From Desulforamulus ruminis DSM 2154 (GTDB lineage: Bacteria; Bacillota; Desulfotomaculia; Desulfotomaculales; Desulfotomaculaceae), in NCBI RefSeq assembly GCF_000215085.1, contig NC_015589.1, forward strand, positions 1,488,001 to 1,552,000: a stretch of DNA of 64,000 nucleotides, in the 5' to 3' direction. Each line of letters starts with the position of its first letter. The first letter of the stretch is position 1. Below are positions 8,610 to 64,000 of the stretch, in pieces. The position numbers were made by a program, and so were the translations under genes. The notes below the pieces were generated by a model. That model did not search any database. It had not been told where the DNA came from and saw only the letters and a program-made list of their open reading frames with translations.

Positions 8610-9296
8610 ATGGAGGGTAAGGTATTAATTATTGATGATGATCAAAAAATCCGGAGATTGATCTCCATCTATCTGGAGAATGAAGGTTTTAAAACCGTAC
8701 AAGTCAAGGACGCCCAAGAGGGGATGCAAGTTTTGCAGAACGAACTAATTGACATCATCCTTCTGGATGTTATGCTGCCTGATATGGATGGCATTGAAGC
8801 GTGCCTCAAAATAAGAGAAAACTTAAATATGCCCATTATCATGGTATCGGCAAAATCGGAGGATATGGATAAACTTCAGGGGATTACCTGTGGCGCTGAT
8901 GATTATATAACGAAACCATTTAACCCCATGGAATTGATTGTCAGGGTCAAATCCCAACTCAGAAGATATAAGAGATACAATAAAGCGGAACTTAAACAAA
9001 CAAATGTGATCGAGATTGGAGATTTAAGCATAAAAACCGACACACGGCAAGTATGGGTTGCTGATAAGGAAATCCGGCTTACGCCCAAAGAGTTTGATAT
9101 CCTGGAATTACTGGCCCGCAATAAAGGGATCGTGTTAAATACAAGCAAGATTTATGAGGCGGTGTGGAGGGAGGATTTTTTCAAATCCGATAACACAGTG
9201 ATGGTTCATATAACCAAAATCAGAGAAAAGATTGAATCAGATCCTAAAAAACCCCTGTACATCAAAACTGTTTGGGGGGTCGGTTACAAGATATGA
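8610..9296 (+). CDS. OmpR-family response regulator
   Basis: A 228-residue regulator with an N-terminal receiver (acidic pair DDD near residue 9, phospho-acceptor Asp in IILLDVMLPD, Lys in ITKPF) and a C-terminal winged helix (LTPKEFDILELLARN and VWGVGYKI). ATG 8610 is preferred to the overlapping TTG at 8607 because AGGGAAGG stands 9 bases before it. The stop overlaps the kinase start as ATGA, so both are translated together. It probably controls the divergent exporter. Confidence 0.92.
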   Translation: MEGKVLIIDDDQKIRRLISIYLENEGFKTVQVKDAQEGMQVLQNELIDIILLDVMLPDMDGIEACLKIRENLNMPIIMVSAKSEDMDKLQGITCGADDYITKPFNPMELIVRVKSQLRRYKRYNKAELKQTNVIEIGDLSIKTDTRQVWVADKEIRLTPKEFDILELLARNKGIVLNTSKIYEAVWREDFFKSDNTVMVHITKIREKIESDPKKPLYIKTVWGVGYKI

Positions 9297-54383: not shown

Positions 54384-54555
54384 GTTCAGGCATCTTAATT
54401 GCATTAATTTTAAAATAAGACATTTAAAATTACATGCTAGCTTATATTTAATCCGTTTGTGGAGGAATGTGCGGTGTGACTGGTGAAACTTTGGTACAAT
54501 GCAAGGGATAAATTTTATCATCCAATAAAACATTTGGCGGATCGGAGGGACCGGG

Positions 54556-56400
54556 GTGAAAAAAATTGCCGTTGGTTTCAAACCGGCGGATTGCATAATT
54601 CAAATTGAAGCCGGCAAAACCATACTGGATGTTGCCCGGGAATTCGGATTAAGTGCTGTCAACCTAGCATCTCCTTGCGGAGGGCAGGGCCTTTGCGGCT
54701 GTTGCCGGGTGAAAGTAACAGGGGATCATTTCTCTCAGCGAACAAAAGCAGAAATAAAGTCACTTTTACCGGAGGAACTGGCCCAGGGCTATCGTTTGGC
54801 CTGCCAGGCTAGGGTTTGGGGACCCGGGGAGGTTGAAATATCCCCTCAAGCAGCCGGCGAAGTACAGTTCTTGGAAATCCAGGGGCTGATCCTTGCAGTG
54901 CAACCCAATCCACCCGTGGCAAGCTACACAATTGAACTGGAAAAGGGTTCTTGGCCATGTTCGCAGCTTGCCTGGCAAGAAATAAAGAATTGTTTAGCAA
55001 CGCAGTATGATTTGGGGCGGCTAAAAATTGATCCGGAATTGTATAGAGAAAAATGCCCTGTAAAATTAACAAAAGAAGCCGTGGTTACCGTTCGGGAGCG
55101 TGAAATTATAAACTGCTTTTTTGGCAGTTCGCCATCTCCGCCGGTTGGGTTGGCAGTGGACCTGGGAACCACAAAAATTGCAGGCTATCTGATCAATTTA
55201 GAATCAGGAGTTGTTCTGGCCGGCGGGACTATCGTCAATCCCCAAAGGGTCTACGGATATGATCTAATGTCTCGCCTCTCCTACGCACTGGAGAGTGAGG
55301 CCAAATACCGCCGACTCAACCGGGACGTGATTGATAGCATCAATCACCTGGCAGCGAATCTAGCAGGCCAGGCGGGATTAGGGGTAAAAGATATTGTCGA
55401 GGCCGTGGTTGCCGGCAACACAGCGATGCACCACCTGTTCCTGAGACTGCCGGTTGATCAGCTTTCCCGGGCCCCTTACCTGCCTGTGGTGACGACCTCT
55501 GTGGAGATAAAGGCGAGGGAAATCGGACTTGTTATTAGTCCCGGAGCTTACGTGTATGTCCTTCCGCCGGTTGCGGGTTTTGTCGGAGGAGACCATGTGG
55601 CAATGATTTTAGGGAGTCAGCTTGATCGGACCGATAAGGTGTCGCTGGGGTTGGATATAGGTACCAATACAGAAATTGTTCTATGTTACGGCGGGCGAAT
55701 GCGATCTTGCTCCTGCGCTTCCGGCCCGGCCTTTGAAGGAACTCATATCCGGCATGGGGTACAGGCCGTCCGGGGAGCGATTCGATCTGTACGCCTGGGC
55801 CGGGATGGCCTTGAAGCCCAGTTGGAAACAGTGGGGGATACGGCCCCGCTGGGTATTTGCGGTTCCGGAATATTGGATGCGGTAGCCGAATTATACCGTA
55901 CAGGCGTAATCACCCGGCAGGGTCGGTTGAACCGCAGTCATCCCCGGGTGCGGCTGTCCGAAATGGGGCTGCAATATACATTGGTACCGGCATCAAAAAG
56001 CGGCACAGGAAAAGAATTAGTGATCACTCAGCAGGATATCGAAGAGATCATGCTGGCCAAGGCTGCTATTGCCACAGGAATCCGGCTCATGTTGCAAGCG
56101 GTTGATCTTACTTGCAAAGATATACAAGAGGTGGTGGTGGCAGGGGCCTTTGGTACTCAGCTCAAAGTGACCAGTGCCATGGTTGTTGGCATGTTCCCCA
56201 ATTTATCCCAGGAACTCTTTCGTCAGGTGGGCAATGCAGCCGGTGCCGGGTCACAGGCCGTTTTAGTTTCTCTGGCCGAGCGGCGGCGGGCGGAGAAAAT
56301 TGCTGCCGTCATAGAACATCTGGAACTAAGCACCATGTCTTCTTTCCAGGAGGTCTATTTTTCCTCTCTCACCTTGCCGCCGCTGAGGAATGCAGAATGA
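54556..56400 (+). CDS. corrinoid-protein reductive activator (RACo-like, DUF4445)
   Basis: A 614-residue protein. The N-terminal ~85 residues form a plant-type [2Fe-2S] ferredoxin (SPCGGQGLCGCCRVKV plus a later Cys in YRLACQ). The ASKHA domain follows, with the nucleotide motifs AVDLGTTKIAGYL and GLDIGTNTEIVL and a conserved ASGPAFEGTHI block. RACo enzymes use ATP and an electron to return inactive Co(II) corrinoid to Co(I). GTG 54556 fits GGAGG at 54544-54548. It heads an operon with a corrinoid protein and two UroD-family proteins. Confidence 0.92.
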   Translation: MKKIAVGFKPADCIIQIEAGKTILDVAREFGLSAVNLASPCGGQGLCGCCRVKVTGDHFSQRTKAEIKSLLPEELAQGYRLACQARVWGPGEVEISPQAAGEVQFLEIQGLILAVQPNPPVASYTIELEKGSWPCSQLAWQEIKNCLATQYDLGRLKIDPELYREKCPVKLTKEAVVTVREREIINCFFGSSPSPPVGLAVDLGTTKIAGYLINLESGVVLAGGTIVNPQRVYGYDLMSRLSYALESEAKYRRLNRDVIDSINHLAANLAGQAGLGVKDIVEAVVAGNTAMHHLFLRLPVDQLSRAPYLPVVTTSVEIKAREIGLVISPGAYVYVLPPVAGFVGGDHVAMILGSQLDRTDKVSLGLDIGTNTEIVLCYGGRMRSCSCASGPAFEGTHIRHGVQAVRGAIRSVRLGRDGLEAQLETVGDTAPLGICGSGILDAVAELYRTGVITRQGRLNRSHPRVRLSEMGLQYTLVPASKSGTGKELVITQQDIEEIMLAKAAIATGIRLMLQAVDLTCKDIQEVVVAGAFGTQLKVTSAMVVGMFPNLSQELFRQVGNAAGAGSQAVLVSLAERRRAEKIAAVIEHLELSTMSSFQEVYFSSLTLPPLRNAE

Positions 56401-57299
56401 CAAAAGCGGAAAGGGTTTATCATGCCATTGGCCGCAGGGGGGTAGACAAGGTACCCAAAGGGGAATGGCACCTATCCAAGGGACTGATTGCCGGTATTCT
56501 AGGCAAAAAAGGTGCCCTGGGATGGGAGGAGGAAGCCGCCGTAAGGGAGTTTTTAGGGATGGATCTGGTGGCTTTGGGGACAGACGCCGACGTGAATGGC
56601 TCCGGGCCGGATGATCACCGTTTCCGCTGCTGGCGGACAGAAACGGATTTTTTTATATTTGCGGTCATTGACGGTCCATTCCAGGGGGCGGCACGGCAGG
56701 TGGGCATTGTCGATTTCCTCCTGAGGCTGGATCGCCGGGATGGAAGGATGAAAGAACTGGCTGCTAAACAGGCTGAGAGGAACCTGGAAACCGCCCGGCG
56801 CTGCCTAAGAAGCGGCGCTCACGGAATACTGCTGGCCGATGACGTTGCCTATACCGACGGTCTTTTCGTTCAATATCCGCTATTGCGGGACATTTTTGTT
56901 CCTTTATGGAAATACCAGGTCAGCGCATTAAAAAGTGAGAAAGTACCTGTCTTTTTTCATTCGGACGGCAACATTAACAGTCTGCTGCCGGATTTGATTA
57001 CAGCCGGATTTACCGGCCTTCATGCTTTAGAGTCCACTGCCGGTATGGATATAGCACGGGTTAAAAAAGTCTACGGGTCGGACCTCTGCCTTATGGGCAA
57101 TATGGATCTGGGCTTTTTAGTAAAGGCCACTGAACAGGAAATTACAACGGAAGTAAAAAAGCTGATGAAGGTGGCGGCACCGGGGGGCGGGTTCATTTTT
57201 TCTACCAGTTGCGGCTGCCTGGGGGATGATGTCCCCCCGGCCAAGGTGATTGCTCTGTATCGGTGTGCCGAAAGGTATGGCGTTTATGCAAAGTCTTAA
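56397..57299 (+). CDS. uroporphyrinogen decarboxylase-family protein (methyltransferase-like) 1
   Basis: About 300 residues of the UroD/MtaA fold, beginning MTKAERVYHAIGRRGVDKVP. Where MtaA-type enzymes have the zinc motif His-x-Cys-Gly-Asn, this protein has FFHSDGN, keeping His but with Asp for Cys. A late cysteine is kept in STSCGC. The ATG overlaps the RACo stop. In a corrinoid operon it should transfer a methyl group to or from the corrinoid protein. Which substrate it uses is unknown. Confidence 0.85.
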   Translation: MTKAERVYHAIGRRGVDKVPKGEWHLSKGLIAGILGKKGALGWEEEAAVREFLGMDLVALGTDADVNGSGPDDHRFRCWRTETDFFIFAVIDGPFQGAARQVGIVDFLLRLDRRDGRMKELAAKQAERNLETARRCLRSGAHGILLADDVAYTDGLFVQYPLLRDIFVPLWKYQVSALKSEKVPVFFHSDGNINSLLPDLITAGFTGLHALESTAGMDIARVKKVYGSDLCLMGNMDLGFLVKATEQEITTEVKKLMKVAAPGGGFIFSTSCGCLGDDVPPAKVIALYRCAERYGVYAKS

Positions 57300-57448: not shown

Positions 57449-58111
57449 TTGACGGAAAAGATTCCCAACACAAGGGAGTTAGTAGTCGCAATCACAGAGG
57501 GCAATAACTTGGAGGCTGTGGCCTTAGCCCGGCGGCTTCTGGACCATGGGCTTGATCTGGAAACCGTAGTGGAGGAGGGACTGACCAAGGCCCTTGAATC
57601 ACTTAGCGATAAATGCGGCAACGACCAATTTAGTTTATTGGAAATATTGCTGGCTGGACGGGCTATGATGGATGTAATGGAGCAGGTTGTCAGTAAGCAT
57701 GTTTGTTTTTCAACTCTGGCCATGGGCAAAGAGCAGCCTGTTTTTGTTATAGGTACCATTAAGGGAGATATGCATGATTTGGGAAAAAATATTGTCAGCA
57801 TGATGTTAAAAGTAGCGGGCTACCGAGTCATTGATTTGGGTAAAGATGTGGAACCGGCAAAATTTATAGAAACAGCAGCCGCAGAACAGGCGCGATACAT
57901 TGGTATCAGCAGTCTGATAACCACCACCATACCCTATGTAAAAGAAGTAAAGCATCTAGCTGTGCAGGAGGGCATGTCGGATGTAAAGGTGCTGGCCGGC
58001 GGTGCTGCTTTGCGTCAGGCGGAACCCGAACAGTTGAATGTGGATTTTGTGGCCCAGAATGTTTTTCATCTGTTAGGGTACTTAAAAGAAGAGGATGAAG
58101 CAAAAAGATGA
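57449..58111 (+). CDS. methyltransferase corrinoid protein (MtaC-like)
   Basis: A 220-residue protein: a helical cap (residues ~1-90) and a cobalamin-binding Rossmann domain with the base-off motif GDMHDLGKNI, SSL in GISSLITTT and GG in VLAGGAALR. The His in DxHxxG is the lower cobalt ligand. It carries the methyl group between the two methyltransferases and is reactivated by the RACo protein. TTG 57449 is the best start, ten bases behind AGGGGGG. A 149-bp gap precedes it. Confidence 0.92.
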   Translation: MTEKIPNTRELVVAITEGNNLEAVALARRLLDHGLDLETVVEEGLTKALESLSDKCGNDQFSLLEILLAGRAMMDVMEQVVSKHVCFSTLAMGKEQPVFVIGTIKGDMHDLGKNIVSMMLKVAGYRVIDLGKDVEPAKFIETAAAEQARYIGISSLITTTIPYVKEVKHLAVQEGMSDVKVLAGGAALRQAEPEQLNVDFVAQNVFHLLGYLKEEDEAKR

Positions 58112-59142
58112 AAATGAATTCTCTGGAAAGGTTCACCGAAACTCTCCGGTGGCAGCCAACAGACCGCTGTTGCTGCCTGCCTTTGGTTTTTGGCTATGCA
58201 GCCAATATCGCAGAGATTGAAATAAAAGATGCGATTTCGGACACAGAGGCTTTGGTATCTTCCCAGCTTTTGGCTCAGCGGCTTTTTGGATACGATGCAG
58301 TCTATGTTTATGGCGGCAACGCGGTAGAAATAGAGAGCCTGGGAATACCCCTTGTGTTTCCGGACGGGGATTACCCTTATCCGGACCCCCGGTACGATTT
58401 GAAAAACCCGGATGAACTGCTGGCGAAGCCCCTCCCCGATCCTGTCAGCCACGGCAGGATACCCAAGCTGCTCAGTGCAGCAGGGAAGTTGCGGCAGGAG
58501 GTTGACGGCAGCGTGCCGGTGGTGGGTGTCATTGCCGGACCGTTCACCATCGCGGCTCAGGTTCTGGGCCTGGAGAAACTGCTGCTTTTACTGGTGGATG
58601 ATCCTGATAAAATTCAAAAACTTTTACATAATGTGTCCATATTGTCCCAAAACTTTGCCCTGGCCCTGTTAACGGCAGGAGCGCAGGTTATCATGATCAT
58701 GGACCCTGTATCCTCTCAAAGTATTATCACACCGGGTATCTTCCGGAACTTCTCATTTCCTTTGCTCAGGGGGATTTTTAAAGGCTGCCGGAGGGCCGGG
58801 GCTCTGGCCTGTTGGTTGGCTATTACCGGGAGAACCGATGGTTTTTTCAAGTTATATCCTGATACCGGCGCAGATCTGGTTACCCTGGACTATGAAGTAT
58901 CTATGGAGAGAGCCTTTTCTTTGCTGCCCCGCTTGGTGATACAAGGAAACATCAGACCTTTTGACTTTGTGGAACGCGGTCCCGGGGAAATAAGAAGAGA
59001 ATGTCTGGATTTGCTCCAACTGGCCCAGGCACGGCCCGGATATATTTTGGGCACCGGCTGTGAACTGCCGCTCAACAGTAAGCAGGAGAATTTAGAGGCC
59101 ATGATGGACGTTCTTTCGTTGCCGTTCCAAGGGAAGGGGTGA
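58108..59142 (+). CDS. uroporphyrinogen decarboxylase-family protein (methyltransferase-like) 2
   Basis: A 344-residue UroD/MtaA-fold protein. The region matching the MtaA zinc motif reads LAITGRTD, so both His and Cys of His-x-Cys are missing; the late Cys is kept in LGTGCELP. It overlaps the corrinoid gene by 4 bases. It is probably the partner methyltransferase that binds a different acceptor or donor, for example tetrahydrofolate or a methylated substrate. Confidence 0.85.
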   Translation: MKMNSLERFTETLRWQPTDRCCCLPLVFGYAANIAEIEIKDAISDTEALVSSQLLAQRLFGYDAVYVYGGNAVEIESLGIPLVFPDGDYPYPDPRYDLKNPDELLAKPLPDPVSHGRIPKLLSAAGKLRQEVDGSVPVVGVIAGPFTIAAQVLGLEKLLLLLVDDPDKIQKLLHNVSILSQNFALALLTAGAQVIMIMDPVSSQSIITPGIFRNFSFPLLRGIFKGCRRAGALACWLAITGRTDGFFKLYPDTGADLVTLDYEVSMERAFSLLPRLVIQGNIRPFDFVERGPGEIRRECLDLLQLAQARPGYILGTGCELPLNSKQENLEAMMDVLSLPFQGKG

Positions 59143-59147
59143 GAGCG

Positions 59148-60473
59148 TTGCCCCAAACTAAAAAAGCTCAAATGGCAGCCCTAATTAAAATTAATAATAT
59201 AACCGGCTACCTGCCCTTGAATTTACAGGAGGTGCTGCGGACCGTCGGGAAGGAAATGGAGGGGCTTTTTCAACCGTACAAAGCTTATTTCCACCTGGAC
59301 TGTGCGGAACTCAGTCTGAATCAGACAGGGAACGGTTTTGAAGATAATATAAGCTATCATCATTCAGACATAAGAGAAAACTGCAGGGCCATTAAGGAAC
59401 AGTTGCCGGTGATTGTTTATGATTCCCAAAGGGAAAACTGCGGGGTTTGCAAGCATACGGACCAGCATCAGTCACATATTTGTGTTCCATTGGTTTCCGG
59501 TTTTCAGGTATTTGGCACCCTTTCACTTAAAAGCTGCACAAGGATCGAGCTGGAAAGGGAGCAGTTGGAATTATTACTGGCGATTACCAATCAAACTACG
59601 GCCACCATTCAGCGGGCCAGATTATTCAACCGGTTGGAACAGGAAAAAGAGATGCTGGAAAAGGCGAACAGGGACAATGAAATTTTAAATCAGAACTTGA
59701 AAAATACCATCCGTCAATTAAAAGCAGCACAGCACCAATTGATTCTTTCCGAGCGTTTAGCCGCGGCCGGACATCTGGCGGCCAATTTTGCCCATGAAAT
59801 CAACAACCCTACGGGAAATATTCTTTCACGCCTGGAATGCCTGGAATTAGAGGCGGAGGAAAACCCACTGCCGGAGACACTGCGCAGGGATCTGGCGATT
59901 ATAAAAAAACACGTCAACCGCATTGCCAAAATTACCCATGGACTGTTGGTTTTCTCCAGGCAGTCACTGCAGCAGGTGGTCCCTGTTCGAATCAATGAAT
60001 TAATTTTAGAAACGGTGGATTGGCTGGAGCAGCAGTTCTCCCGTAAAAATATATGTTTTACCGTGCAGTTGGGGGATTTGCCTCCCATCAAAGGCAATCA
60101 GGAACAACTGCATCAGGTTTTGGTCAATCTATTGACTAACGCTCGGGATGCCATGCCGAAGGGCGGCGTTATTAAAATTATCACTACCGTCAATACCGAA
60201 AAAAAAGAATTGGTAATTGATATATGTGACAGGGGAAGCGGTATTTCAGCCCGGCACATGGATAAAATATTTGATCCTTTTTTTACCACCAAAGAGGCGG
60301 GTAAAGGGACCGGGCTGGGGTTATCCATTAGTTACAGCATTGTACAGGAACACGGCGGGCGTATTGAAGCAGAAAGTGTAGAAGGAGTTGGGACAACTTT
60401 TTCAATCAAGCTACCGCTGAGTGATGAAGGGGATCTAAACGATGTCAGGAAAAAGACGGATTTTAATCATTGA
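59148..60473 (+). CDS. soluble sensor histidine kinase with GAF-like domain
   Basis: About 441 residues with no membrane segment. An N-terminal GAF-like domain (about 25-165, counted from GTG 59139) holds a cluster C101, C104, H106, H110, H113, C115. A coiled linker leads to the H-box (NFAHEINNPTGNI), N-box (NLLTNARDAM), and G-box (GTGLGLSISYS). TTG 59148 behind AAGGGG is a likely start, GTG 59139 the longer option. It phosphorylates the NtrC-type regulator encoded next and probably senses a cytoplasmic redox or cofactor state. Confidence 0.88.
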   Translation: MPQTKKAQMAALIKINNITGYLPLNLQEVLRTVGKEMEGLFQPYKAYFHLDCAELSLNQTGNGFEDNISYHHSDIRENCRAIKEQLPVIVYDSQRENCGVCKHTDQHQSHICVPLVSGFQVFGTLSLKSCTRIELEREQLELLLAITNQTTATIQRARLFNRLEQEKEMLEKANRDNEILNQNLKNTIRQLKAAQHQLILSERLAAAGHLAANFAHEINNPTGNILSRLECLELEAEENPLPETLRRDLAIIKKHVNRIAKITHGLLVFSRQSLQQVVPVRINELILETVDWLEQQFSRKNICFTVQLGDLPPIKGNQEQLHQVLVNLLTNARDAMPKGGVIKIITTVNTEKKELVIDICDRGSGISARHMDKIFDPFFTTKEAGKGTGLGLSISYSIVQEHGGRIEAESVEGVGTTFSIKLPLSDEGDLNDVRKKTDFNH

Positions 60474-61833
60474 TGATGAAGACGATATGCTGGAAACCTC
60501 CAGCAGACTGCTGCGGCGGCTGGGTTATGAATGTGCCACCTTAAACGACAGTACCCGGGTGGCGGAATCCCTGGCCGAGGTGCAGCCTGAAATCATTCTT
60601 TGCGACTTGGTAATGCCCAAACTGGATGGCCTTGAGGTGCTCAAAACCACCCGGAAAATGCTGCCGGACTCCCTGGTTATTATTATAACCGGCTTTGCAA
60701 CCGTTGAGTCCGCTGTTAATGCCATTAAAGAAGGGGCTTTCGATTATCTGCCCAAGCCCTTTACCTTCGATCAACTGGAGGTAACCGTCCGGCGGGCGGA
60801 AGAAAAATTAAACTTGAAGGCAGAGAACCAAATTTTACGTTCCCAGTTGGAGGAGAAGTACAATTTTGATAACATTATCGGGGCCGGCGGCGGGATGCAG
60901 CCGGTTGTTGAAACCATCCGTAAAATATCCGCCAGCAATACCAACATTCTTATCCTGGGGGAAAGCGGCACCGGAAAAGAATTAATCGCCCGCAGCATCC
61001 ATGCCAACAGCAGGAGGAAACACGGCCCCTTTGTGGCCGTAAACTGTGCTTCATTGCCCAATAATCTTCTGGAGAGTGAACTTTTCGGGCATGAAAGGGG
61101 TGCCTTTACCGGCGCCCATACCAGCAAAGCCGGTTTAATGGAGGTGGCGGACCGGGGAACCCTGTTTCTGGATGAGGTGGGGGAGATGAGCAGGGAACTG
61201 CAGGCAAAACTGTTGAGGGCTTTGGAACTGCACTCCTTCCGGCGGGTGGGAGGGACGAAGGAAGTTCAGGTTGATATAAGGATTCTGGCGGCTACCAACC
61301 GGGACCTTGAAGAGGCCATTGTAAAGGGTGAATTCCGGGAGGATCTTTACTATCGCCTGAACGTCCTCACCATTTATCTGCCGGCTTTACGGGAACGGGC
61401 ACAGGATATTCCTTTGTTGTCCCTCCATTTCCTACAGTATTTTTCCGAACGGGCAGGCAAACCCATTGGCTCCATTGCACCGGCTGCTATAGAACTTCTT
61501 CAGCGGTACAACTGGCCGGGAAATGTCCGAGAACTGAAAAACATTATCGAACGAGCAGTGGCTTTGTGTGAAACAAAGGAAATTATGGACGGAGATTTAC
61601 CTGAACGGTTGAATGGAAAAAGGGGTAGCCTCTTCCAGTCCGCCCCGAATCTGGAGATGCCTTTTCACCAGGCCAAGTCCGAATGGATTGAAACCTTTGA
61701 AGTGAAATACCTTCAGGGGCTGCTGGAGAAGCACGGAGGAAACATCTCGGAGGCTGCCCGGGAATGCGGCGTGGACCGGAAAACCATTCATCGATTACTG
61801 GCAAAGCACAAACTGAAATATCATGATTCATAA
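60442..61833 (+). CDS. NtrC-family sigma54-dependent response regulator
   Basis: A 463-residue activator. The receiver has D55 (ILCDLVMP) and K105; the AAA+ domain has Walker A GESGTGKE (173-180), the sigma54-contact loop GAFTGA (220-225) and Walker B LFLDEVGE (241-248). A Fis-type helix-turn-helix closes the protein (SEAARECGVDRKTIHRLLAKH). It overlaps the kinase gene. Its probable targets are the two divergent sigma54 promoters 650-830 bp downstream, which flank a perfect inverted repeat. Confidence 0.94.
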   Translation: MSGKRRILIIDDEDDMLETSSRLLRRLGYECATLNDSTRVAESLAEVQPEIILCDLVMPKLDGLEVLKTTRKMLPDSLVIIITGFATVESAVNAIKEGAFDYLPKPFTFDQLEVTVRRAEEKLNLKAENQILRSQLEEKYNFDNIIGAGGGMQPVVETIRKISASNTNILILGESGTGKELIARSIHANSRRKHGPFVAVNCASLPNNLLESELFGHERGAFTGAHTSKAGLMEVADRGTLFLDEVGEMSRELQAKLLRALELHSFRRVGGTKEVQVDIRILAATNRDLEEAIVKGEFREDLYYRLNVLTIYLPALRERAQDIPLLSLHFLQYFSERAGKPIGSIAPAAIELLQRYNWPGNVRELKNIIERAVALCETKEIMDGDLPERLNGKRGSLFQSAPNLEMPFHQAKSEWIETFEVKYLQGLLEKHGGNISEAARECGVDRKTIHRLLAKHKLKYHDS

Positions 61834-61856: not shown

Positions 61857-61891
61857 TAGAGACTGCTAACCGGCAGTCTCCACTTTTTTTA
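61857..61891 (+). terminator. terminator of the corrinoid/NtrC operon
   Basis: GAGACTGC (61859-61866) pairs with GCAGTCTC (61873-61880), followed by CACTTTTTTT. It overlaps the 3' end of the convergent lipoprotein gene. Confidence 0.85.
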
Positions 61892-62426
61892 GGTCAAGGT
61901 CAATCTTTAACCCGTTTCCAAGGGGTTGATTGGCCTGATCTACAGCAGCGGGAAATTTTATAGTTAGATGGTTGAATTCTTCGGGAGTTTTTTCTCCCAA
62001 GGGGAAAATGATAAAGCCCCGCATCACTCTCTGTGGAGGATAAGTACCACTCATTTCCTCAGAAATCGTTACATCAGGCAGCAGGATTTTTCCGGAAGAA
62101 TTACTGATGGTTATTTGTTCCGGAAAATAACGGACCTCCTGGTCACCGGTATTGGCAATTTCCAGCCCCAGCGCGATTTGGCCCTTTTCTTTTGCTCTGG
62201 ATTCATCAAACCTTACCACGCCGACATTGACAATTCTTATTTTTACGGGGTCCAACTCAAGGATGCGCTGAATGTCGTAAACCATGCTATGTCTTTGGCT
62301 TGCTTGACTGGACGCCGGGTTGTTGTCCCGGGCGGGTGGGGAAGGTTCCTGACTGCAGCCAGTTAGAGCAAGAACGCCTACCACCATGAACAAAAGAACA
62401 AAAGGGTTAAACTTTTTAAGCCGCAT
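61866..62426 (-). CDS. hypothetical lipoprotein
   Basis: About 186 residues. The signal peptide ends in the lipobox ALTGC (Cys near residue 23). The mature part is a beta-rich domain of the kind with NTGDQEVRYFPEQITI, like DUF4352-type or FixG-like Ig folds. ATG 62426 is chosen for AGGAGG 8 bases upstream; the frame goes on far upstream but without sense. A near-consensus sigma54 promoter precedes it. It is divergent from the cytochrome operon, so it may be an assembly or accessory factor of it. Confidence 0.75.
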   Translation of the reverse strand: MRLKKFNPFVLLFMVVGVLALTGCSQEPSPPARDNNPASSQASQRHSMVYDIQRILELDPVKIRIVNVGVVRFDESRAKEKGQIALGLEIANTGDQEVRYFPEQITISNSSGKILLPDVTISEEMSGTYPPQRVMRGFIIFPLGEKTPEEFNHLTIKFPAAVDQANQPLGNGLKIDLDLKKVETAG

Positions 62427-62484: not shown

Positions 62485-62500
62485 TGCAAGAGCAATGCCA
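62485..62500 (-). promoter_or_regulatory. sigma54 promoter of the lipoprotein gene
   Basis: On the reverse strand the sequence is TGGCATTGCTCTTGCA, with GG and GC exactly ten bases apart as sigma54 requires. Transcription would start near 62475, about 50 bp before the lipoprotein ATG. Confidence 0.75.
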
Positions 62501-62564
62501 AGGCTTCTTTTAATGAATGATGCGGATTGTTGAGGATATGCGGCGGGGTGGAGATGGGACACAT

Positions 62565-62606
62565 ATACCCCACAACCGGGACGGAAATGTCCCGGTTGTG
62601 GGGTAT
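62565..62606. promoter_or_regulatory. 18-bp perfect inverted repeat, candidate NtrC-type activator site
   Basis: ATACCCCACAACCGGGAC (62565-62582) is repeated perfectly inverted at 62589-62606 around six bases. No U-run follows on either strand, so it is not a usual terminator. It lies about 66-107 bp upstream of one sigma54 start and 90-131 bp upstream of the other, the distance of an upstream activating site. Confidence 0.75.
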
Positions 62607-62645
62607 GATCATGCCGAAAGGGACCTGTTCAAGCCCCTTTTGAGA

Positions 62646-62661
62646 TGGCACAGGTTTTGCG
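62646..62661 (+). promoter_or_regulatory. sigma54 promoter of the cytochrome c / Rieske operon
   Basis: TGGCACAGGTTTTGCG: TGGCAC (62646-62651), five bases, TTGC (62657-62660), with the required ten bases between GG and GC. Transcription would start near 62672, 46 bp before the cytochrome gene. Confidence 0.8.
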
Positions 62662-62717: not shown

Positions 62718-63029
62718 ATGGTTTTAAAGAAAACACTTGCCGGAACCATGATGCTTGTAGGAATGATCATGGGACTTATGTTTGTTTCCCCTTATGCCGT
62801 TCCCATTCCGCAAGCCCAGGAGGCCAGTGCGGATACCCCCGGGGCACAGGCCTTTGCCTCCGTCTGCAACACCTGCCACTCAACCGACAGGATCAGAGAT
62901 TACCAGGGGGATAAGAGTTGGGGCGAAATTATTACCTTGATGAAAAGCTTTGGGGCCCTCCTGAGCGAGGATCAGGCCAAAGAGATCGAACAACATCTGC
63001 AAACGACCTATCCCAGGGATAAGAAATAA
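62718..63029 (+). CDS. monohaem c-type cytochrome
   Basis: A 103-residue exported protein: an N-terminal signal or anchor (about 7-32), then a small cytochrome domain with one haem-binding motif CNTCH near residue 50. The frame ends LQTTYPRDKK. GGGGGG stands just before the ATG. It is the first gene of a run with a small membrane protein, a Rieske protein and cytochrome b, so it likely takes electrons from that complex. Confidence 0.88.
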   Translation: MVLKKTLAGTMMLVGMIMGLMFVSPYAVPIPQAQEASADTPGAQAFASVCNTCHSTDRIRDYQGDKSWGEIITLMKSFGALLSEDQAKEIEQHLQTTYPRDKK

Positions 63030-63035
63030 GGGGTG

Positions 63036-63350
63036 ATGGCGAAAAAGATGAATTTCCTAGGGTTTATAAGGTCTAAAGACGAAAAAACCGGCAGTTTACA
63101 GGAGGCCTGGGCCATGGACACTGCTGTCGAAGACAAAGGATTTTTTGCTGGAATAACGGTTTTGGGTCTGACTTCCTGGGCCTCCCTAAGTTTGTTGTTT
63201 ATGCTCGGAAGGAGCTGGGCTGCAGCGAATTGGGACTGGGTGGCCATTTTGAGCGGTTTGCTGTGTTTCAGCGCTTCGCTGGCCATCTGTGCCTGGAGGT
63301 CGGTGGCTCTGGATTTTGGAGAAAGAGGTGATGAGGATGGAGCCCACTAA
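63036..63350 (+). CDS. small two-helix membrane protein of the bc operon
   Basis: About 104 residues with two membrane segments (FFAGITVLGLTSWASLSLLF and WVAILSGLLCFSASLAICAW) and no recognised domain. ATG 63036 is preferred to the overlapping GTG 63033. It overlaps the Rieske gene by 14 bases. Its place suggests a small subunit or assembly factor of the quinol:cytochrome c complex. Confidence 0.65.
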   Translation: MAKKMNFLGFIRSKDEKTGSLQEAWAMDTAVEDKGFFAGITVLGLTSWASLSLLFMLGRSWAAANWDWVAILSGLLCFSASLAICAWRSVALDFGERGDEDGAH

Positions 63351-63780
63351 AAAATATCTTTCCCGGCGGAAGTTTTTAAGTTACCTGTTTACTTTTCCGC
63401 TGGCAGTAGGGGTTGTCACCCCTCTGGCCCTTAGCGCCGGTGTACTTTCTCCGCCACTTTCTTTAAAACCGCTCCCCCCCCGTATGGGAGTGGCCAATGT
63501 TAAGGATATTCAAGAAAAACCCATAGAATTTATCTATGATGGATATCCGGCTATTTTATTTAAATCAGGCCGGGAATATAAGGCCTTTTCCAGGGTATGC
63601 ACCCATTTGGGTTGTATCGTTTCCTGGGATGAACAGAAAAAACAGTTCCATTGCCCCTGTCACGGCGGGATATATGATGCCGGGGGGAACGTTGTTAGCG
63701 GTCCGCCGCCGGCACCCTTAAACCGCCTGAAGGCCTGGGTGGATAAAGATGTGGTTATGGTTCAGCGGGAGGTGGTATAA
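63337..63780 (+). CDS. Rieske [2Fe-2S] protein of a menaquinol:cytochrome c reductase
   Basis: About 147 residues. The N-terminus has a twin-arginine motif (SRRKFLSYL) before a membrane helix, so export by Tat is expected. The cluster ligands are CTHLGC and CPCHGG, and the GPPP loop follows. ATG 63337 is preferred, as GAGG lies 8 bases upstream. It passes electrons from menaquinol to cytochrome c. Confidence 0.93.
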   Translation: MEPTKKYLSRRKFLSYLFTFPLAVGVVTPLALSAGVLSPPLSLKPLPPRMGVANVKDIQEKPIEFIYDGYPAILFKSGREYKAFSRVCTHLGCIVSWDEQKKQFHCPCHGGIYDAGGNVVSGPPPAPLNRLKAWVDKDVVMVQREVV

Positions 63781-63783
63781 GCG

Positions 63784-64000
63784 GTGAGTACACCAAGCCG
63801 GGATGTCGATGTTAAAACAATGCTGCAGGAAGTGGCAGCCCACCCTGTACCTGAATATGCCAGAAAATTTTACTATTGCTTTGGAGGACTCACCTTTTTG
63901 ACCTTTGTGATACAGGTCCTTACAGGGATCCTGCTGGCCGTCTATTACAAACCCACTCCGGAAGCGGCCTATGAGAGCGTAAAATTCATTACGGATGAGG
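63784..64000 (+). CDS. cytochrome b subunit (b6/QcrB-like), 5' part
   Basis: The first 72 codons of a cytochrome b gene, cut by the window end. It starts with GTG 63784 behind GGAGG and reads VPEYARKFYYCFGG, then a membrane segment with LTFVIQVLTGILLAVYYKP-like sequence and TPEAAYESV, which is the conserved first helix and Qi-side start. It should form the core of the complex with the Rieske protein. Confidence 0.9.
   Translation, partial: MSTPSRDVDVKTMLQEVAAHPVPEYARKFYYCFGGLTFLTFVIQVLTGILLAVYYKPTPEAAYESVKFITDE

Follow-up and report, generated by a model that had tools for sequence, protein, structure and literature searches.

The intergenic site considered here lies in a 64,000-nucleotide stretch of Desulforamulus ruminis DNA (the window) and is predicted from its sequence to be the control region of a nitrous oxide (N2O) respiration (nos) operon in a strictly anaerobic bacterium. 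The predicted regulator, an NtrC-type sigma54 activator (EBP), is encoded in a module with a histidine kinase (HK), an MtaA-like protein and a corrinoid protein (CorP), and it travels across bacterial families with this vitamin B12 protein, perhaps the long-missing N2O sensor. The whole account, with its last step read loosely (a compound reactive with Co(I), chiefly N2O, as the signal), is given a probability of about 0.6.

N2O is a strong greenhouse gas for which the microbial N2O reductase is the main biological sink, and it is in addition a poison of B12 enzymes, which many anaerobes need. The detection of N2O in anaerobes is largely obscure, and the literature searched names Crp/Fnr-type regulators and no sensing cofactor. 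A corrinoid sensor, if true, would detect the poison through the very reaction that causes the damage. The module supplies concrete genes, DNA sites, and predictions for culturable N2O-reducing Firmicutes and could flag genomes that switch on N2O removal in response to N2O itself.

The Nitrous Oxide Reductase Operon and the Divergent Lipoprotein

The plus-strand genes were described in the first-pass annotation as a menaquinol:cytochrome c reductase, and Rieske and cytochrome b genes are indeed present; however, they are only the start of a nos operon running past the window end, with the order cytochrome c, small membrane protein, Rieske, cytochrome b, subunit IV, cytochrome c, NosZ, NosB, NosD, NosL, NosY, and NosF. 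Within the window this operon comprises a small exported c-type cytochrome (CNTCH; 62718–63029, +) with orthologues in close nos loci, an open reading frame for the small membrane protein (63033–63350, +) with orthologues in other nos loci, the Rieske iron-sulfur protein (63289–63780, +; NF010001, 2.8e-21), and cytochrome b (63784–64000, +), which continues together with the operon into the next bases (L023). There NosZ (L023:13433–15337, same operon) scores 905.5 bits with TIGR04246 against a cut-off of 625, and NosD (L023, same operon) scores 404.8 bits with TIGR04247 against a cut-off of 300; curated models were used only for these two, and NosB, NosL, NosY, and NosF are named by position and similarity among loci. 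Having a TIGR04246 NosZ, nosB after nosZ, nosDLYF, and Rieske/cytochrome genes, which characterize clade II (Sec) nos operons, the plus-strand operon is predicted to be a complete nos operon of the clade II, Sec type that also encodes its own quinol-oxidising Rieske/cytochrome b module. A genome-contig scan with the 103-residue cytochrome as query gave no matches.

Since NosZ was found in only 1 of the 10 family genomes searched, namely, the window genome itself (G000), the operon was probably acquired by transfer. According to the D. ruminis genome paper nitrate is not used, and a search of it for N2O and nos terms gave no mention of either (PMC3569383). The nos operon suggests that D. ruminis is a non-denitrifying N2O respirer.

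Divergent from the operon is an open reading frame for a lipoprotein (LipoP; 61866–62426, −), which had no match in Pfam and NCBIfam and is left without family assignment. Its orthologues occur in 7 further module-linked genomes, where the gene is conserved and, at many of these nos loci, divergent, and its product may have a part in the maturation of N2O reductase or in signalling. Between the convergent EBP and LipoP genes lies an intrinsic-terminator-like hairpin with a T tract (61859–61880, +), the one match of a terminator scan that gave 1.4 on average in shuffled sequence. In most relatives genes for an FtsX-like permease, an ABC ATPase, and a small membrane protein stand between the LipoP and cytochrome genes (L078:7209–9742, L079:5837–8193, and others), an insert that is missing from the window operon.

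Predicted Sigma54 Promoters and Activator Dyads

Divergent sigma54 promoters with GG and GC doublets ten bases apart had been noticed at first reading, and both were found again: TGGCACAGGTTTTGCG at 62646–62661 (+) before the nos operon, with a predicted start at about 62672, and TGGCATTGCTCTTGCA at 62485–62500 (−) before LipoP, with a predicted start at about 62474. They point outwards and flank an inverted repeat. The pattern TGGCAY-N5-TTGCW is enriched in the genome, with 22 matches versus 3 for the reversed control pattern; the LipoP promoter is one of the 22, and the nos promoter departs from the pattern in the last base (G) only. One copy of rpoN (PF04552, 1.2e-63) and 16 strong sigma54-activator domains are encoded in the genome. 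As for sigmaA boxes, the alternative named in the first-pass annotation, a scan of the intergenic region found no sigma70-type promoter, and sigma70 control of this region was ruled out for lack of a box. Upstream of the nos genes a sigma54 promoter of the TGGCAY-N5-TTGC type is present in all 12 of the module-linked nos loci, and a divergent one precedes LipoP at most loci that carry this gene.

The perfect 18-bp inverted repeat reported between the promoters (62565–62606) was recovered exactly, with 18-nt arms at 62565–62582 and 62589–62606 that are 100% complementary and separated by a 6-nt spacer. The proposal of an activator site at this place is strongly supported by comparative genomics, but not as a single site: the repeat appears to be a composite and is better read as two tandem 16-bp activator dyads, 22 bp apart, each with 1 mismatch to GRGACA-N4-TGYCYC. 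Dyad A, GGGACACATATACCCC (62556–62571), is centred at −108 to the nos start and −90 to the LipoP start, and dyad B, GGGACGGAAATGTCCC (62578–62593), at −86 and −112, respectively; read in this way, the repeat would join dyad B to the half of dyad A that faces it and to a mirrored half-site.

The perfect 18-bp stem could fold as a hairpin, but it is extremely improbable that the repeat serves as a terminator, is mobile, or arose by chance, as it has no T tract, was not called by the terminator scan, lies outside both predicted transcripts, and contains a dyad unit that is found at the same place in other genomes. Moreover, it is single-copy at up to 3 mismatches in the 3.97-Mb genome, which rules out a genome-wide repeat and argues against a mobile one; a search of viral contigs also gave none.

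The evidence for activator dyads comes from a motif derived by comparing four loci (window, G194, G392, and G353) and applied to 12 nos promoter regions of 11 genomes, G194 giving two promoters. The dyad with at most 1 mismatch was present in 10 of the 12 regions, which none of 2000 scrambled dyads equalled, and its density was 5.3 per kb in nos promoter regions versus 0.06 per kb across whole loci. It was present in all six loci outside the motif derivation (G406, G412, G414, G466, G415, and G435); the G426 nos promoter region had no recognisable dyad and that of G404 weak dyads only. The centres in other genomes are mostly at −86 to −144 from the nos start (−216 in G412), and paired dyads are frequent among nos promoters, with a spacing of 21–22 bp, that is, two helical turns. 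Thus conservation in related genomes, which had been named as a check of the palindrome, holds for the dyad unit, which recurs at the matching place in nos promoters of other genomes. Among the 22 sigma54 sites of the window genome, the nos region is the only one with a dyad outside coding sequence. Two perfect dyad matches elsewhere were judged to be chance or unrelated: one lies inside coding sequence of hydrogenase type, as does the sigma54-like match there, and the other at a gene junction of an ABC-transporter locus, next to which none of the listed sigma54 sites falls. In G194 a second sigma54 promoter with paired dyads stands before the cytochrome gene.

The Corrinoid Protein Module

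The genes upstream of the intergenic region, all on the plus strand, begin with a RACo/AcsV-like reductive activator of corrinoid proteins (54556–56400; PF14574/PF17651/Fer2; NF040756 at 419 bits, below cut-off), which is present in some copies of the module only, in four genomes (window, L095, L139, and L137). It is followed by a first URO-D/MtaA-like protein (UROD1; 56394–57299; PF01208), elsewhere seen in L095/L133 only, in which the His and the last Cys of the zinc site are kept and the middle Cys is Asp. The conserved part consists of the MtaC/MtbC-like CorP (57449–58111; PF02310/PF02607; PDB 1y80, E 2.8e-31), the MtaA/CmuA-like URO-D-fold protein UROD2 (58108–59142; PF01208; best PDB match MtaA 4ay7; TIGR01463 at 114.8 bits, below the cut-off of 235), the cytosolic GAF HK (59139–60473; PF01590, PF00512, PF02518, and alignment), for which the Pfam search matched no membrane domain, and EBP (60442–61833). 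The latter had been picked out as the nearest activator with a GAFTGA loop, and its receiver, GAFTGA AAA+ domain, and Fis-type HTH are all present. A Cys cluster (NC...CxxC...ICVPL) is seen in the GAF domain of most HK copies, being lost in G415 and G426, and is possibly an Fe-S or metal site.

These genes had been taken for a corrinoid methyltransferase operon, which is right as to the corrinoid and MtaA-like genes but most likely not as to a methyl pathway. In CorP the B12-binding domains are present and the cobalamin motif DxHxxG-SxL-GG is intact in 15 of 15 copies. In UROD2, on the contrary, two of the three MtaA zinc ligands (the His and the first Cys) are lost in all 15 copies and the last Cys alone is kept, so that the His-x-Cys...Cys arrangement of MtaA/CmuA zinc sites reads A-I-T...C in the window and no copy has His-x-Cys; this loss does not prove that all catalysis is gone. 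The ligands are those of the 4ay7/4ay8 structures and agree with the alignment numbering. An intact corrinoid-binding motif together with lost zinc ligands suggests a sensor rather than an enzyme.

As an alternative, CorP and the MtaA-like protein could form a working methyltransferase (e.g., an O-demethylase) giving electrons from methyl groups, with HK sensing the methylated substrate and N2O reductase co-regulated as the acceptor. In Clostridia sigma54 control has been predicted for an MttB corrinoid methyltransferase (PMC12316311), UROD1 retains two zinc-site residues, the His and a Cys, and RACo is encoded in the window; nevertheless, this alternative is unlikely, because neither in the window nor in the other nos loci is a substrate-specific methyltransferase conserved in the module, UROD2 has lost its two ligands throughout, and the constant partner across loci is N2O reductase and no methyl-substrate gene. 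Since conserved substrate methyltransferases and two of the UROD2 zinc ligands are missing, the corrinoid gene set is most likely the input end of the nos regulatory system and not part of a nearby methyl metabolism.

A 10/11 sigma54-like match, AGGCATCTTAATTGCA, was observed at 54388–54403, about 150 bp before the RACo gene, with no dyad seen nearby, and the corrinoid-protein/kinase/regulator module may have its own sigma54 promoter there.

Linkage of the Module to nos Genes across Genomes

Control by the adjacent NtrC-type regulator, as originally suggested, is strongly supported by comparative genomics, for the module is linked to nos in at least four families. CorP, UROD2, HK, and EBP stand directly upstream of nos in the window and at L078, L079, L080, L095/L133, L131, L132, L134, L137, and L142, and this gene order is common to the window and nine other nos loci. 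In G415 a RACo gene is inserted into the module, in G435 some 25 kb separates the module from nos, and in G464 they lie on different contigs. The module also accompanies a different nos cluster in G415 and G404 (NosZ 47–50% identical), and in G426 (L138:10329–14857) HK and EBP with a sigma54 promoter are found upstream of a clade III lactonase-type L-NosZ (869.5 bits), where the contig ends before the CorP/UROD2 region and these genes are therefore not visible.

Orthologues of EBP near nosZ in three other genomes are 71%, 55%, and 55% identical, and same-genus genomes without NosZ have only EBP paralogues of at most 47% identity. In one order of 74 genomes HK occurs in 10, all of which have NosZ (Fisher p 9e-11, shared ancestry uncorrected); two more NosZ genomes of this order fall below the HK threshold, and G404, one of these two, carries the module with an HK that has diverged further. 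Full-length HK was found in few of 397 genomes, and two Peptococcaceae MAGs were added when genome contigs were scanned for the kinase, the other matches being generic kinases. Since the nos loci of G197 and G401, from the same phylum, are without the module, it is not universal in Firmicutes.

Proposed Sensing Mechanism

From sequence features, conservation, and linkage we infer a route that includes DNA binding, phosphotransfer, corrinoid state as the signal, and N2O as the trigger. EBP would bind the tandem dyads at 62556–62571 and 62578–62593 and, when bound, would drive sigma54 RNA polymerase at both the nos operon and the divergent LipoP gene, a step that is considered highly probable. 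EBP would be phosphorylated by the cytosolic GAF HK encoded beside it, the pairing being read from gene adjacency, and HK would in turn likely get its signal from CorP held by the MtaA-like protein. The corrinoid would be maintained in the Co(I) state, with the RACo-type activase doing this in some hosts; N2O would oxidise the Co(I) of CorP, and the changed CorP would activate, or cease inhibiting, HK, with the result that the presence of N2O would lead to expression of the nos genes.

A Co(I) corrinoid is proposed as the detector because N2O oxidises Co(I) cobamides (PMC10960958) and is the sole thing common to clade II and clade III nos clusters. For the oxidation of the Co(I) corrinoid by N2O as the HK trigger the chances are put at about even, as the chemistry is known and the sensing step is one that we infer.

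Module Copies without nos Genes

A search of the class to which G378 belongs revealed module copies without NosZ. In G472 (L151:7690–13780) the module, with a perfect sigma54 promoter at 9171 (−), adjoins genes for a reductive dehalogenase and a NosR/RdhC-like FMN-binding membrane protein; this dehalogenase scores 160.8 bits with TIGR02486, barely over the cut-off of 160.35, and has PceA and NpRdhA-type PDB matches at 1e-28. Organohalides likewise react with Co(I), and the G472 copy is in keeping with detection of compounds that react with Co(I), not of N2O alone. In G378 (L141:4125–11236) and G468 (L152) the module has no NosZ neighbour and lies beside genes for a DUF1646 permease and an Mrp antiporter, the sigma54 sites of G378 having weak dyads. 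Because these two copies adjoin ion transporters, the signal may be wider than N2O, and they urge caution.

The copies that lack nos and adjoin ion-transporter or dehalogenase genes, as well as the Cys cluster of most HK copies, are also compatible with HK sensing redox state by means of its Cys-rich GAF domain or with the corrinoid pair gauging general corrinoid oxidation (by any oxidant or by lost reducing power) and not N2O itself. This is, however, rather unlikely: the GAF cysteines are not conserved in G415 and G426, the association with NosZ lineages that diverge as far as L-NosZ indicates N2O, and many NosZ-free relatives should carry a sensor of general redox state, whereas full-length HK is rare, as described above. 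Detection of N2O or related Co(I)-reactive compounds by the corrinoid is thus preferred. In its broadest form, offered tentatively and with chances somewhat below even, the proposal is of a new gas-sensor class, in which a pseudo-methyltransferase/corrinoid pair would use the reaction of Co(I) with N2O (organohalides in other copies) to trigger a sigma54 two-component switch for production of the enzyme that removes the compound detected.

Relation to Known Systems

Control of nitrogen-oxide genes by an NtrC/NorR-type sigma54 activator is known from NorR-norVW, in which the GAF domain of NorR itself is the direct sensor of NO. The present system resembles NorR-type systems in the sigma54 promoter, the GAFTGA activator, the tandem upstream dyads, and the regulator gene adjoining its target, but it targets N2O reductase, and its input appears to come from a separate HK and from a corrinoid protein paired with an MtaA-like one. 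The corrinoid as a sensory group is shared with CarH-type B12-dependent regulators and corrinoid riboswitches; CarH, however, is itself a light-responsive DNA-binding repressor with adenosylcobalamin and involves neither Co(I) chemistry nor a kinase.

Among regulators of clade II nos genes, Wolinella NssC of the Nss family responds to N2O (PMC6682613) and nosZ in Nitrosophilus is under Crp/Fnr control (PMC11539149). These regulators likewise switch on clade II nos genes, NssC doing so upon N2O, but they are single-protein Crp/Fnr-type regulators of Campylobacterota without sigma54, kinase, or corrinoid protein. The same type of nos operon is found in the clade II clusters of Desulfitobacterium and Desulfosporosinus (PMC11096178, PMC3306737), from which some of the compared loci probably derive, and text searches of these two papers gave no mention of a regulator or of corrinoid genes beside nos.

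In the open-licence literature nothing was found on sigma54 with N2O reductase and Desulfitobacterium, nor on N2O with corrinoid or cobalamin sensing, which is weak evidence of novelty. The first-pass annotation knew of no described case of a menaquinol:cytochrome c reductase and a divergent lipoprotein under sigma54 control tied to methyl-corrinoid metabolism. With the MttB record (PMC12316311) the combination of sigma54 and corrinoid genes is by itself no novelty, and key-term searches of papers on these nos clusters and genomes gave no mention of the module. The nearest gene set to the module is the mec cassette of dichloromethane degraders, where HK, response regulator, corrinoid protein, and MtaA/CmuA-family protein genes are clustered (PMC9768040) and the substrate is a halogenated methane; unlike the module, the cassette has a kinase with a PocR domain, methyltransferases that are thought to be catabolic enzymes, and no nos genes (PMC9768040).
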